Shown here piece after piece: positions 24,151 through 29,484 of a stretch of 64,000 nt of DNA. Made by a program: the position numbers and the translations under genes. Source of the stretch: Natrinema salinisoli (GTDB lineage Archaea; Halobacteriota; Halobacteria; Halobacteriales; Natrialbaceae); assembly GCF_020405205.1 (NCBI RefSeq), contig NZ_CP084469.1, forward strand, positions 1 through 64,000, written 5' to 3'. The notes beneath the pieces are model-generated. The model was not told the origin of the DNA and searched no databases. It worked only from the letters and a program-made list of their open reading frames with translations. Each line of letters opens with the position of its first letter. Position 1 is the first letter of the stretch.

Positions 24151-24924
24151 TCAGTCCGTTTGGGGGATCGACCGCGCGCCCAGCGCGAACGCGAGGACGG
24201 CGAGGACGGCGAGAATACCGAGGTTCGCGAGCGCGGGATCGACGCCGGCCACCGCGGGCGTCTCCGACCCCGAATAGGTCGCCGCCCGCACGCCTCGAGC
24301 GAAGTGCGTCAGCGGCGAAAGGTTAACGAGCGGCTCGAACCAGCCGGGGAGCTGCTCGAGCGAGACGAAGGTCTCAGAGAGGAAGAGCAGCGGGAGCCCG
24401 ATCCCGTTACTGGCGGCGACCGCGCCGTCCTGTGAGTCGGTGTAGCTGCCGAGCATCGCGCCGACGCCGCAGAAGCAGACGACGCCGACGAGGACGTACG
24501 GCACCAGCAGCGGCGAGAAGACGATCTCGGCGCCGGTCAGCAGTATGACGAGTCCGAGGATGAGCAGGCTGGCGAGCCCGATGATCGCTGCGTTGACGGC
24601 CGTCTGGGCGAGCAACCACTCGCCGCGGGTCAGCGGTGTCGTCGCGAGCTTCTCGAAGCGGCTCCCCTCGCGGTGGCGCGCGACCTCGCTGCCCATCCGC
24701 GACAGCGGCGTGAAGAGGACGACCACCGCGAGGTAGCCCGGCACGTAGAACGCCGCCGGCTCGGTGAACAGGCCGCCGCCCGCGGGATCGGTGCGGATCA
24801 GCGCGCCGAAGATGACGATCAGGATCACCGGGAAGAAGAAGGTGAAGAAGACCGCCGTCCGCCGGCGGACGAACGAGCGCCAGCCGGCGCTGGTTTCGGC
24901 GCGAACGCGTCCCATCCGACTCAC
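24151..24924 (-). CDS. ABC-2 type transporter permease
   Basis: The 257-residue membrane protein has six hydrophobic segments, with [18 protein letters not shown] near the N-terminus (about 27-44) and the ABC-2 region [20 protein letters not shown] (about 97-116). It has the usual short cytosolic N-terminus RRRTAVFF before helix one. It is the export-type permease partner of the ATPase encoded immediately upstream, with a 4-bp ATGA overlap. The substrate is unknown; related systems export drugs, polysaccharides or copper. The full transporter would be a homodimer or heterodimer in the cytoplasmic membrane. Confidence 0.9.
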
Positions 24925-25910
24925 GCCGTCTCACCCGCCTGTGCGAGATCCGATTCGCCGGTTCCGCCGTCCCCGCCGCCCAGTCGCTCCGTCCGCGCTC
25001 GCTCGGTCGCGTCGGCCAGTTCGAGATAGACGTCCTCGAGGTCCGGTTCGGCCCACGAGAGCTCGGTGTACTCGATATCGCGCGCCTCGAGGTAGTCGAC
25101 CACCGTCCCGATCGCGGCGGGCTCGATGTCGCGGACGATAACGCCACTGTCCGGGTTTCGGCCCCGACCACCCGCCGCGCGTTCGACTGGGTACTCGAGG
25201 TCGGCGAAGGCGTCCGGATCGGCCGCCGTTTCGATCGTGAGTCGGCTCGAGCCGCCGTGGTCGCGGACGAGGGCCTCGGGTGTGCCCTGCGCGACGAGGC
25301 TCCCATCGGCGAGCAGGCCGATGCGGTCGGCGAGGCGTTCGGCTTCGGCCATGTCGTGGGTCGTGAGGACGACGGTCGTCCCGCCGGCGGCGAGATCCTC
25401 GATCAGCCCCCAGACGGTGCGACGACCGGCGGGGTCGATGCCGGTCGTCGGCTCGTCGAGAAAGAGGAGGTCGGGGTCGTTGACCAGCGCGGAGCCGACG
25501 CAGACGCGCCGTTGCTGCCCGCCCGAAAGGTCCTCGTACCAGGTTTCGCCGGCGTCGACCAGACCGACGTCGGCGAGGACGTCGTCGGGATCGCGCGGGT
25601 CGTCGTACAGTCCCGCGTAGTAAGACAGGAGTTCGCGGGCGCTGAGGCGGGCCGGCGGCGAGAACTCCTGTGGCAAGACGCCGAGCCGGTCGCGATCGAC
25701 GGCCGCCGGCGACTCGCCGAGGATCCGCGCCGTTCCCGTATCGGGCTCGGTCGTCCCCGTCAGCGCGCGGACGAGCGTCGTCTTGCCGGCCCCGTTCGGC
25801 CCGATCAGTCCGAACACCTCGCCGCTCTCGACGGACAGCGACGCCCCCGACAGCGCCACCGTCTCGCCGTAGCGCTTCTCGAGGTCCGTCGCATCGACTA
25901 CGGCTGTCAT
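24921..25910 (-). CDS. ABC-2 type transporter ATP-binding protein
   Basis: The 329-residue ATPase shows Walker A GPNGAGKTT (about 36-44), a Q-loop in VLPQEFSP, the ABC signature LSGGQQRRV (about 128-136), Walker B LLFLDEPTTGIDP and the switch His in LTTHDMAEAERLADRIG. The C-terminal extension (about 220-329) carries the domain seen in CcmA/DrrA-like exporters. It overlaps its permease by 4 bp and leads the operon. The exporter class is clear; cargo is not. Confidence 0.93.
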   Translation of the reverse strand: MTAVVDATDLEKRYGETVALSGASLSVESGEVFGLIGPNGAGKTTLVRALTGTTEPDTGTARILGESPAAVDRDRLGVLPQEFSPPARLSARELLSYYAGLYDDPRDPDDVLADVGLVDAGETWYEDLSGGQQRRVCVGSALVNDPDLLFLDEPTTGIDPAGRRTVWGLIEDLAAGGTTVVLTTHDMAEAERLADRIGLLADGSLVAQGTPEALVRDHGGSSRLTIETAADPDAFADLEYPVERAAGGRGRNPDSGVIVRDIEPAAIGTVVDYLEARDIEYTELSWAEPDLEDVYLELADATERARTERLGGGDGGTGESDLAQAGETA

Positions 25911-26111: not shown

Positions 26112-27482
26112 TCAGTCGGTCGCTTCCGGCGCGTGGACCGTCTCCGGTTCCGGATTCTCGACGACGTGGCGATCCGGCAGGTCGGGGACGGGCTCGCGGC
26201 CGACCGTGAAGAACCGCTCGGTGCGCGTCAGTTCCTCCGTCGCGGGGCTCGGTTTCGTGAACCGCTCGAACTCGACGGCGACGCCCGCGGCATCTGACGC
26301 GGTCTCGCTCTCTGACTCGGGCGCGATGCGAACGGCGGCCAGCTGGTACGACGGGTAGAACACCGGCGGGAGGATTCCGATGATCCCGTCGCGACGGTGG
26401 AGGCGCTTGAGCCACGTGCCCGTGTTGACCAGCACGCCGCCGTCGACTTCCTTCAACATCGGGCGGTGGGTGTGCCCGAAGCAGAAGATCGTCGTCTCCG
26501 GCTCCGCCGCGAAGACCTCGCGAGCGCGCTCCTCGTACGATTCGACCGGATCGACGGTGAGCTCCGTCTCGAACACGCCGAAGCGATCGATCGTCTTCCT
26601 GATGTCTCGACGGATGAAGTACAGCGGAATCCCGATGAGCAGGAGCAGCCCGGCGACGGCGACGTTGAGCGTGAGGAGGAACCAGGCCGCGGTGCCGGCC
26701 CTGCCGAACTGCTCGAGGAACGCCTCCGTCCAGGTAACCGGTAGCGACCAGATCCCCGTCAGATGCAGCCCCGCCAGTACCGAGAGGAGGGCGCTGATAT
26801 TGAACAGCAACAGGAACGGCACCAGCGAGTAGCGTATCAGCGGATTCATCTCCCGGTAGAAGTACTTCGAGAGGAGCCAGATCGGCATTCGCTCGGTCGG
26901 GGTGACCGCCTGCACGTCCTTCAGCCAGTTGTACCGGCCGCGGTCGGAGAGCTGACCCGCCCGGCTCGTCACGAGCGTGTTGTAGTAGTAGCCCAGCGGC
27001 GTCGCGTAGGGGTTCCCCCAGTCCTCGATCCGGTTGTTGGCGTCCTGCTGGTGGCCGTGCTCGAAGTGGATCGCCTGGTCGCCGACCGTTCGAACGATCG
27101 ACTGGTCCTGAACGAGGTCCACGTTGTACGCCGCGAACCGATCGACGTACTCGTCGTACGCCGCGAGCTCGTGGTCGTGATTCCCCGGCAGCAGCGTGAT
27201 AGGGATATTCTCCCCCGTCGCTCGAAGTTGCTCGAACAGCTCCGGATACGTCTCCTCCAGGACCTCGAACTTCTCGAGCCCGTCGACCGTCGTGAACTCC
27301 CAGAGCCCGAACGCGTCGCCGTTGATGATCAATTCCGCGTTCTCGTCGGTCCGCGCCAGCCGCTCGAGGAAGGCGCGCAGCTCGCCGAGAAACGCAGCGT
27401 CCTCGAGCTGTTCGTCGCCGCCGATGTGGAGATCGCTGATCACGTAGTAGACACGATCATCGCCGTCCGTCTCGGTGGCCAT
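26112..27482 (-). CDS. Metallophosphoesterase with a two-helix membrane insert
   Basis: The 456-residue enzyme has calcineurin-type motifs in order: SDLHIGG (about 17), IINGDAFG (about 53), LLPGNHDHE (about 97-102), FEHGHQ (about 140) and CFGHTHRPM (about 335). Unusually, two membrane helices (about 211-245 and 262-290) sit between the fourth and fifth metal motifs, so the active site would be completed after a membrane hairpin. The start ATETDGDDRVYYVISDLH at 27482 is preferred to the frame extending to 27671. The substrate is unknown; UDP-diacylglucosamine hydrolases and Mre11-like enzymes share the fold. It is monocistronic on the minus strand. Confidence 0.88.
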   Translation of the reverse strand: MATETDGDDRVYYVISDLHIGGDEQLEDAAFLGELRAFLERLARTDENAELIINGDAFGLWEFTTVDGLEKFEVLEETYPELFEQLRATGENIPITLLPGNHDHELAAYDEYVDRFAAYNVDLVQDQSIVRTVGDQAIHFEHGHQQDANNRIEDWGNPYATPLGYYYNTLVTSRAGQLSDRGRYNWLKDVQAVTPTERMPIWLLSKYFYREMNPLIRYSLVPFLLLFNISALLSVLAGLHLTGIWSLPVTWTEAFLEQFGRAGTAAWFLLTLNVAVAGLLLLIGIPLYFIRRDIRKTIDRFGVFETELTVDPVESYEERAREVFAAEPETTIFCFGHTHRPMLKEVDGGVLVNTGTWLKRLHRRDGIIGILPPVFYPSYQLAAVRIAPESESETASDAAGVAVEFERFTKPSPATEELTRTERFFTVGREPVPDLPDRHVVENPEPETVHAPEATD

Positions 27483-27585: not shown

Positions 27586-29484
27586 TCACTCGGTGCTCCG
27601 CCTACCGAGTGGCGGCAGGGCGGGGTCGTCGACATCGGACTGATCGACGCCCGAAATTTCGAATCGCGCACCGCCGTCGGCGGCGTCGGTCACTGCGATC
27701 GACCAGCCGTGGGCCGTGACGACGTCCCGGACGATCGCGAGCCCGAATCCGGTCCCGTCGGTAGCCGTCGTATATCCCTCTTCCAGCACCGATTCCTTTC
27801 GGTCGTCCGGAATCCCGGGGCCGTTGTCTTCGACGTAGAACCCAGTTCCATCGGCGAGACGACCGACACGAACGGTCGGACTCGCATGGTCGTCCTCCTC
27901 GTCGCTGGGCGTTCCGTGTTCCAGACTGTTTCGGAACAGGTTCTCGAAGACGTTCAGCAGTCGGTCCCGATCGGCGACGACCGAGCAGTCGTCGCCGAGT
28001 TCAAGCGTCGCCTTCCGCGTCTCGACGTTCGCCCACGCGTCCTTGGCAACGACCGAGAGAGTGACCGACTCGGTTTCCGTAATCGCCTTCCCCTGCCGGG
28101 CGAGCGCGAGCGCGTCCTCGATGATGTCGCCCATCCGGTCGTGTGAGCGCTCCACTTCCTCGAGGTACTCGACGCTGACGGAAACCTCCGCCGGCCCGTC
28201 GTCAGCGTCGGTGTCCTCGACCTCGCTCAGTATCGTCTCGAGATAGCCCTGTGCGACGTTGAGCGGGTTCCGGAGGTCGTGGGAGACGATTCCCGCGAAC
28301 CGGTCGAGCCGTTCGTTCTGATACTCGAGTTGCTCCTTCTGGAGTTCGAGTTCCTGTTCCCGCGCTCGGAGTTGGTCCTCGCGGCGTTTCTGTTCGGTGA
28401 TGTCGTGAATCAGGGCGACGTGTCCGACGGGGTCGTCATCGTCGCCGAGTGCCGAAACCCGAACGTCGTAACACCGCTCTCGGTCGTCGAGCCGGACCCA
28501 CAGTTCCTCCCGAAGTTCACGGACCGGCTCCGAGCCGTCGAGGACGGCCTCGAGGTCGCCGGCTCGGAGGACGATCTCGGACGGGACGAGCGCCGTCACG
28601 TGTTTGCCGACCGGCCGGCCACCCCCGGCCAGCCGCTTTGCAGTCGAGTTGACGTCGACGACGCGATCGTTCCGGTCGAAAACGATGATCCCGTTGTCGA
28701 CCGCTTCGACGACGAAGTCCCTGGCCAGCGGCACCACGGCTCCGCGTTGCGAGCCCAGTACCGAGAGCAGCCGATCGACGGGGACCTTCTTGGCGACCGT
28801 GATACTCGAGGTCCCGACGATGAGCAGCGTGCCGAACGCGAGATAGGCAAGCGGCAGCAGCATGAAGTGAGGAGGGGCCGGACTCACCTCTGCGAGCGAA
28901 AAGAGCGTCATCGACGTGGAGCCAACGGTGGTCACGATGATAACGAAGGCGATCCGCCGATAGACGTTTCGCGAGCGCAAGATCTTCAGCGAGAGCATCG
29001 TGCTGTGGACCACCACGAGCGCGTACGACAGTCCGAAGACCGCGTACGTCCCCCATTGCAAATCGTACTCGAGGAGAGAGACCGAGCCGTGCGCGACCCG
29101 CGGGTCGACGAACATGTACCCGTGAACGTGGTTCGTCGCGACGAGAACGAGCGTTGCGACGGGAAAGAGGAAGAGAGCGACGAGACGAGGGCGGGTGAGC
29201 CAGTCACCGCGACCGGTAAAGTGAAACACAAAACACAGGGTTGTAACGGTCAGTAACGGTGGTACTACCAGAAACGACCGAAACCAGAACAGCTTCAGCT
29301 CCAGCGGGACGCTCGAGACGGTGCACAGTGTCAGAAACGCCCACAGACCGACCGAGAGCTGAACGCTCGACCCCCAGGTTTCGACCGGCCCGGACCGGTG
29401 TCGCCACGTGACGATCGCACCGACGGTCGCGAGGAGTGTCGCGAGCAATAGCGGGACGGTGTACGGCGTCAGTTGCCACGTCAT
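27586..29484 (-). CDS. 7TM-PAS-HisKA-HATPase sensor histidine kinase
   Basis: The 632-residue kinase has an N-terminal seven-helix 7TM input domain (about 1-220), a PAS-like domain (about 255-370, ending in the IHDITEQKRREDQLRAREQE linker), a dimerisation domain with phospho-acceptor His in GIVSHDLRNPLN (about 397) and a HATPase with N box LFRNSLEHG, G1 DNGPGIPD and G2 GTGFGLAIV. No response regulator is adjacent, as is common in haloarchaea. The input ligand may be a lipid-phase or small hydrophobic signal. A TATA at 29525-29534 supports the start at 29484. Confidence 0.93.
   Translation of the reverse strand: MTWQLTPYTVPLLLATLLATVGAIVTWRHRSGPVETWGSSVQLSVGLWAFLTLCTVSSVPLELKLFWFRSFLVVPPLLTVTTLCFVFHFTGRGDWLTRPRLVALFLFPVATLVLVATNHVHGYMFVDPRVAHGSVSLLEYDLQWGTYAVFGLSYALVVVHSTMLSLKILRSRNVYRRIAFVIIVTTVGSTSMTLFSLAEVSPAPPHFMLLPLAYLAFGTLLIVGTSSITVAKKVPVDRLLSVLGSQRGAVVPLARDFVVEAVDNGIIVFDRNDRVVDVNSTAKRLAGGGRPVGKHVTALVPSEIVLRAGDLEAVLDGSEPVRELREELWVRLDDRERCYDVRVSALGDDDDPVGHVALIHDITEQKRREDQLRAREQELELQKEQLEYQNERLDRFAGIVSHDLRNPLNVAQGYLETILSEVEDTDADDGPAEVSVSVEYLEEVERSHDRMGDIIEDALALARQGKAITETESVTLSVVAKDAWANVETRKATLELGDDCSVVADRDRLLNVFENLFRNSLEHGTPSDEEDDHASPTVRVGRLADGTGFYVEDNGPGIPDDRKESVLEEGYTTATDGTGFGLAIVRDVVTAHGWSIAVTDAADGGARFEISGVDQSDVDDPALPPLGRRSTE

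Follow-up and report, generated by a model that had tools for sequence, protein, structure and literature searches.

The catalytic domain of Pseudomonas LpxH is made up of residues 1–118 and 174–240, with a helical insertion (residues 119–173) lying between His114 and His195 (PMC5016852). As described there, the insertion binds lipid X beside the metals and is proposed to touch the membrane with its outer surface, and an LpxH-specific arginine (Arg80) replaces the usual catalytic histidine and grips the beta-phosphate. PlcP, a further metallophosphoesterase, has been placed in one tree with LpxH as the outgroup (PMC9239053), and PlcP (PA3219) is described as yielding diacylglycerol for glycolipids (PMC8528852). 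LpxG of Chlamydia is a membrane-associated calcineurin-like phosphoesterase with a GHxH motif, whose predicted membrane helix is described as N-terminal (PMC4807358). A survey of titles and abstract openings in the open-access literature returned no paper on a metallophosphoesterase family interrupted by a membrane hairpin.

The window analyzed here, a 64,000-nucleotide stretch of the haloarchaeon Natrinema salinisoli (NZ_CP084469.1, positions 1 to 64,000), encodes such a protein on its minus strand (Table 1). The Pfam domain PF00149 matches residues 13–189 (45.4 bits, cut-off 21.5), which places the protein in the calcineurin-like superfamily, and PF12850 matches residues 315–364 (35.2 bits, cut-off 27), with a gap of 125 residues between the two matches. 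Five motifs are present in the order SDLH (residues 16–19), NGDAFG (54–59), GNHD (100–103), HGH (142–144), and GHTH (336–339), and the seven ligands of the dinuclear metal centre, as listed in PMC5016852, are intact (D17, H19, D56, N101, H142, H337, and H339).

Table 1 Features of the membrane-hairpin metallophosphoesterase gene in the window.
Feature	Coordinates	Strand	Basis
Metallophosphoesterase gene with membrane-hairpin insert, 456 aa	26112..27482	minus	ORF (ATG at 27482, stop at 26112); Pfam PF00149 and PF12850
N-terminal catalytic half (residues 11–149): ligands D17, H19, D56, N101, H142; H102 of GNHD	27036..27452	minus	Pfam, AlphaFold2, alignment
Conserved membrane-proximal lid (residues 150–214): 16/65 invariant, including W186, Q191, W202, Y207, Y209, E211	26841..27035	minus	Alignment; low model confidence at 166–200
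Predicted transmembrane helix 1 (residues 214–241)	26760..26843	minus	AlphaFold2, hydropathy, alignment
Inter-helix loop (residues 242–260), predicted outside; 0 invariant residues	26703..26759	minus	Alignment
Predicted transmembrane helix 2 and cytosolic extension (residues 261–301); invariant D293, T297, R300, F301	26580..26702	minus	AlphaFold2, alignment
C-terminal catalytic half (residues 313–410): GHTH 336–339 and N353, G355, W357	26253..26546	minus	Pfam, AlphaFold2, structure comparison, alignment

A homologue set was assembled from 163 loci, all with a match, by picking the best stretch of each with phmmer alone and then aligning. After identical stretches were merged, 131 rows remained, including the window protein; many of these are close relatives and hence do not amount to 131 independent tests, and the lowest identity to the window protein is 41%, in the 23-row alignment A1. 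Nine residues are invariant in 131/131 rows (D17, H19, D56, N101, H102, D103, H142, H337, and H339), among them all seven metal ligands (D, H, D, N, H, H, and H), as is characteristic of the superfamily. An initial sequence-only reading had counted HGH as a metal motif, which holds for H142 but not for the second histidine, H144, since this position is variable (H in 100 of the 131 rows, N in 13, Q in 11, and M in 7); H142 alone therefore counts as the motif residue.

Two strongly hydrophobic segments lie between HGH and GHTH. In a Kyte-Doolittle profile with a 19-residue window the protein peaks at 2.19 and 2.36 within residues 215–292 and reaches 1.23 elsewhere, and only 1 of 2000 shuffles of the protein contains two windows of at least 2.19 that are at least 25 residues apart. 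Both segments recur in 131/131 rows (window maxima 2.09–2.78 and 1.94–3.13), and the span from H142 to H337 is 194–198 residues in every row. The enzyme resembles LpxG as a membrane-associated calcineurin-like phosphoesterase with a GHxH motif, but unlike LpxG it has no N-terminal helix, as no window in residues 12–200 or 305–430 exceeds 1.47 in any of the 131 rows. The mean number of lysine and arginine residues per row is 2.78 in residues 196–216, 0.80 in 243–262, and 4.59 in 289–309. By the positive-inside rule, positively charged flanks stay cytosolic. These flank charges, along with the lack of any other strongly hydrophobic segment, predict cytosolic catalytic halves and an external short loop. 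A normal calcineurin-like domain on the cytosolic face is thus supported by the family match, the structure prediction, and the charge pattern.

An AlphaFold2 model built from 61 sequences, mostly close relatives (pLDDT 74.8, pTM 0.69), renders the hydrophobic segments as two long helices, residues 214–241 and 261–301, and not as a buried cytosolic subdomain. When pLDDT is averaged over ten-residue blocks, the catalytic halves are mostly at or above 83, with dips at residues 21–30 (59), 141–150 (77), 361–380 (51 and 63), and 391–400 (66). The hairpin scores 70–84, falling to 53 at 291–300, and residues 166–200 of the lid fall below 50. Residues 145–325 folded alone (70 sequences; overall pLDDT 65.7, pTM 0.45) yield the same two helices, mostly at 83–90 with ends at 68 and 62; the lid and hairpin alone had no Foldseek match in the PDB, which is a weak guide to fold novelty. 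The order proposed by the sequence-only reading, in which metal motifs are followed by two membrane helices and then by GHTH, is thus borne out by the ligands, hydropathy, AlphaFold2, and the homologues, in 131/131 of which the insert is kept and the histidine pair of GHTH is invariant.

As modelled, the protein is a single continuous metallophosphoesterase fold. Structure comparison with VIA-align returned LpxH at ranks 1–23 (Z 17.0–18.5, 202–216 residues aligned, rmsd 2.7–4.6), and the next family was Vps29 at Z 13.8, with YfcE, MJ0936, and Vps29 spanning Z 13.1–13.8. Foldseek also placed LpxH first (E 2.5e-5), although less clearly, as a purple acid phosphatase (5.8e-5) is found among the LpxH chains (2.5e-5 to 8.7e-5). 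At its best, the overlay of the single-chain model and LpxH extends from residue 10 to 429 and, with the same order of motifs, places the insert at the position of the LpxH insertion. In both enzymes a helical insertion therefore splits the catalytic domain after the fourth metal motif and before GHTH, and the seven metal ligands are identical. It had been supposed that normal calcineurin-like enzymes keep their motifs uninterrupted, which does not hold for LpxH, where residues 119–173 intervene between His114 and His195 (PMC5016852); the lipid-binding insertion of LpxH is a precedent for interruption at this place. The two enzymes differ in that LpxH is a peripheral membrane protein, while the haloarchaeal insert is predicted to span the membrane and is longer by about 114 residues, as judged from the H142–H337 span against the 81 residues between His114 and His195 of the Pseudomonas enzyme. 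The unusual part of the haloarchaeal enzyme is this membrane-spanning lid, of which the passages on LpxH in PMC5016852 describe no counterpart.

The same superposition bears on two further proposals. The active site had been suggested to be completed by a dimer, which is not needed, as one chain carrying both halves superposes on LpxH. A degenerate or non-functional insertion product, or a dimer-completed site, is in our judgement highly improbable: second copies are decaying in some genomes (in G058, in G064, and as a Haloferax lucentense remnant), but the ligands are invariant in 131/131 rows. We conclude that the protein is a genuine and conserved version of an established enzyme type, distinguished by its lid.

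The likeness to LpxH lies in the fold and in the position of the insert, more than in the sequence. The top NCBIfam model is the LpxH equivalog, whose 28.2 bits fall short of the cut-off of 134, followed by the models for the DNA polymerase II small subunit (27.1 bits, cut-off 445) and YfcE (20.9 bits, cut-off 56.25). Among solved structures the DNA polymerase II small subunit is closest in sequence: it was the sole match of a protein search (E 3.6e-4) and the first match of a profile search (E 1.1e-4), with LpxH second at 0.003. A profile comparison with E. coli LpxH aligned residues 13–145 (24% identity, probability 84%). E. coli LpxH has GNRD in place of GNHD, and H102 is a histidine in 131/131 rows. 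The sub-cut-off score and the histidine in place of Arg80 rule out an LpxH ortholog. To our knowledge, lipid A is not expected in an archaeal host.

These sequence matches, along with the purple acid phosphatase among the Foldseek LpxH chains, count against a lipid hydrolase. The sequence matches would fit a membrane-tethered phosphodiesterase, nuclease, or nucleotidase for soluble substrates, in which the hairpin is a mere anchor. Hydrophobic anchors can also tether enzymes of soluble substrates. The core likewise matches the generic YfcE, MJ0936, and Vps29 structures, and the polymerase subunit model scores close to the LpxH model. We nevertheless consider a soluble substrate unlikely, as the hairpin is found at the lipid-binding site of LpxH and a mere anchor would not require the density of invariant residues in the adjoining lid. 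This density (16/65) is comparable to that of the N-terminal catalytic half (30/139), while the inter-helix loop contains none (0/19). Such dense invariance beside helix 1 fits a substrate-binding face close to the membrane, where residues 150–217 may form a lipid-binding crevice.

We therefore lean, by a modest degree, towards an integral-membrane hydrolase of the LpxH/PlcP kind that acts on a phosphate or pyrophosphate lipid of the inner leaflet as its candidate class of substrate. In the proposed mechanism, a normal calcineurin-like catalytic domain would sit on the cytosolic face of the membrane. The lid, which in LpxH grips the lipid between itself and the metals, would be enlarged to a conserved surface segment (residues ~150–214) and a transmembrane hairpin (214–301), and the hairpin would press the catalytic site to the inner leaflet. 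From the bilayer, a lipid with a phosphoester or pyrophosphate group could then approach the metals sideways, and there H102, which takes the position of the customary catalytic histidine, and the two metals would hydrolyse the bond, as in other members of the superfamily. The likeliest substrates would be archaeal membrane lipids or their activated precursors, cleaved either as phospholipids in the manner of PlcP or at the pyrophosphate of a CDP-archaeol-type lipid in the manner of LpxH. The suggestions that the insertion would tether the active site at the bilayer and that the substrate might be a lipid-linked phosphate are both supported, the latter as the likeliest kind of substrate. Since the hairpin stands where the distantly similar bacterial LpxH has its lipid-gripping lid, the haloarchaeal family may act on phosphate-bearing membrane lipids.

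Because H102 stands where LpxH has arginine, a nucleotide-lipid pyrophosphate is no likelier than another phosphoester substrate or the substrate of a PlcP-like phospholipase C. PlcP resembles the haloarchaeal enzyme, by published descriptions alone, as an LpxH-related metallophosphoesterase acting on membrane lipids, and it differs in that the descriptions cited above contain no membrane hairpin. A narrower form of the lipid-hydrolase reading would make the enzyme a phospholipase C of the PlcP kind that remodels lipids when phosphate is short, and not a nucleotide-lipid pyrophosphatase. The histidine at position 102 in 131/131 rows agrees with a substrate that is not a UDP-type pyrophosphate, and PlcP is both related to LpxH (PMC9239053) and a source of diacylglycerol for glycolipids (PMC8528852). 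A PlcP would be expected in an operon with a glycosyltransferase and under Pho regulation. Against this form, which we regard as doubtful, no glycosyltransferase was found among the four neighbours in the window or among the 25 of 61 Pfam families listed for 38 adjacent same-strand genes.

A broader proposal is that the lid has turned into a transmembrane hairpin that makes the membrane part of the substrate path, so that inner-leaflet lipids slide between hairpin and metals and never leave the bilayer. The family would then consist of haloarchaeal phospho- or pyrophosphohydrolases of lipids, with one clade recruited to membrane-stress islands of the DUF389 type. We regard this as plausible while stopping short of calling it probable. 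If it is true, growth of the lid through the membrane can turn a peripheral LpxH-type lipid enzyme into an integral one. Lipid-turnover enzymes of haloarchaea are still being assigned, and a metallophosphoesterase fixed at the inner leaflet would add a tangible candidate.

The distribution of the gene narrows the possible roles. Of 145 halobacterial genomes searched, 86 contain a match at E 1e-3 and 75 a strong one (E <1e-100); the remaining 11 have weak matches only (E 2e-5 or worse), ten of them generic and one a 54-residue piece in genome G060 that is 46% identical and may be a remnant. When 294 genomes of the phylum were searched with a profile, 23 genomes from the order of the window were recovered, along with three weak N-terminal matches whose ORFs resemble, by eye, DNA polymerase II small subunits and contain no hydrophobic stretch. 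Scanning genome contigs, bacteria included, with two peptide patterns yielded 267 stretches, 236 of them relatives, and the best 80 of these 236 are in archaeal records that are haloarchaeal by name, bar a few with no fuller title than 'Euryarchaeota archaeon' or 'uncultured archaeon'. Most of the protein is also carried by 18 plasmid records, all haloarchaeal, where it is annotated only as 'metallophosphoesterase' in 17 and not at all in one, and a plasmid search with the insert alone again returned 18 records, haloarchaeal without exception. Haloarcula hispanica is one carrier, with a copy on pHH400. Within the class Halobacteria the gene is therefore common, and its presence in about half of the sampled genomes, often on plasmids, suggests that it is dispensable.

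A review of archaeal lipid synthesis notes that an inositol-lipid phosphatase is still to be identified (PMC9385802). Patchy occurrence speaks against such a role at the core of lipid biosynthesis, as do the 70 of 145 genomes in which a strong match is lacking.

The window protein is 98% identical to a protein of Natrinema salsiterrestre, and its own genome contains no second copy of the gene among a total of ten PF00149 matches, the hairpin enzyme included. Several other genomes have two or three matches, some of them decayed, such as pieces interrupted by 2 TGA codons in G058 and a split copy in G064. On a Haloferax lucentense plasmid, an unannotated remnant of residues 45–110 (L177:4001-4198) lies between DUF1269 and MFS genes; the same genes flank an intact copy in Haloferax gibbonsii (L171), which indicates a gene in decay. 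A metallophosphoesterase on viral contig L137 (L137:4001-4366) is 26% identical over residues 14–147 and has GNHD, HGHEED, and GHTH...GSW with a lid between them, but this lid is short and contains no hydrophobic stretch, so that the viral protein is a soluble-lid cousin.

Identity to the window protein among the genome matches falls into three bands, termed clades A (~65–84%), B (~50–56%), and C (~43–46%); in alignment A1 the last two are 49–54% and 41–44%, and for the B-clade comparison the clades were set by score. To look for a conserved operon in the window's clade, a simple codon-bias script, liable to overlook genes, supplied the ORFs of 101 neighbourhoods from mixed clades, and none emerged: the commonest neighbour cluster occurs in 9/101 under strict and in 13/101, at scattered positions, under loose clustering. 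The script listed 55 adjacent same-strand genes, of which 17 that were short, near-duplicate, overlapping, or the window's own were left out and the other 38 compared with Pfam; among the 25 of 61 families listed, only the ABC ATPase and the overlapping AAA_21 occur in more than two of the 38 genes (5 each). Across the 101 neighbourhoods, the neighbours of the window's clade point to no substrate. In the window itself, an ABC exporter is encoded downstream on the minus strand (24151-25910; best NCBIfam models drrA and drrB, both below cut-off), and its permease is common to the window and eight other loci. Upstream on the same strand is a histidine kinase with 7TM and PAS domains (27586-29484), whose ORF stops some 100 bases short of the enzyme's start codon.

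The B clade differs from this pattern. Its 17 rows were merged to 13 distinct places (L041 with L176; L043 with L054 and L138; L044 with L171), and at 8 of the 13 a DUF389/TIGR00341 gene lies within the fetched stretch, one of them (L040) a fragment only. DUF389 occurs in all 141 halobacterial genomes searched for it (1–8 matches each), and even at 8 per 3.9 Mb the chance of finding it within an 11-kb stretch is estimated at ~2%, an upper bound per place. An adjacency above this chance level suggests a link of the B clade to membrane stress, one that does not reach the window's own clade, and the neighbourhood is possibly an envelope-stress island. On this evidence the enzyme might belong to an envelope-stress or ion-homeostasis module and not to lipid metabolism proper, and DUF1269, AI-2E, DUF5518, HdeD, TIGR00266, or LURP-one genes at some B places point the same way. 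We think this rather improbable, because DUF389 is absent by the 144 A-clade rows and 11 C-clade rows (duplicates kept, many with short flanks), and the association may mark stress islands and not a common function.

Within the B clade, DUF389/TIGR00341 genes are found near the metallophosphoesterase at L171, L173, L175, L176, L040, L042, L044, L045, and L158, of which L171 to L176 are plasmids. Counted over the 17 B rows, DUF5518 occurs in 5, DUF1269 and AI-2E in 4 each, HdeD in 2, and LURP-one, TIGR00266, formylglycine-generating enzyme, and arylsulfatase in 3 each. Close to the B-clade gene, the annotation of L172 and L175 includes arylsulfatase, formylglycine-generating enzyme, and LURP-one; that of L174 has only the formylglycine-generating enzyme, and arylsulfatase and LURP-one there are script matches.
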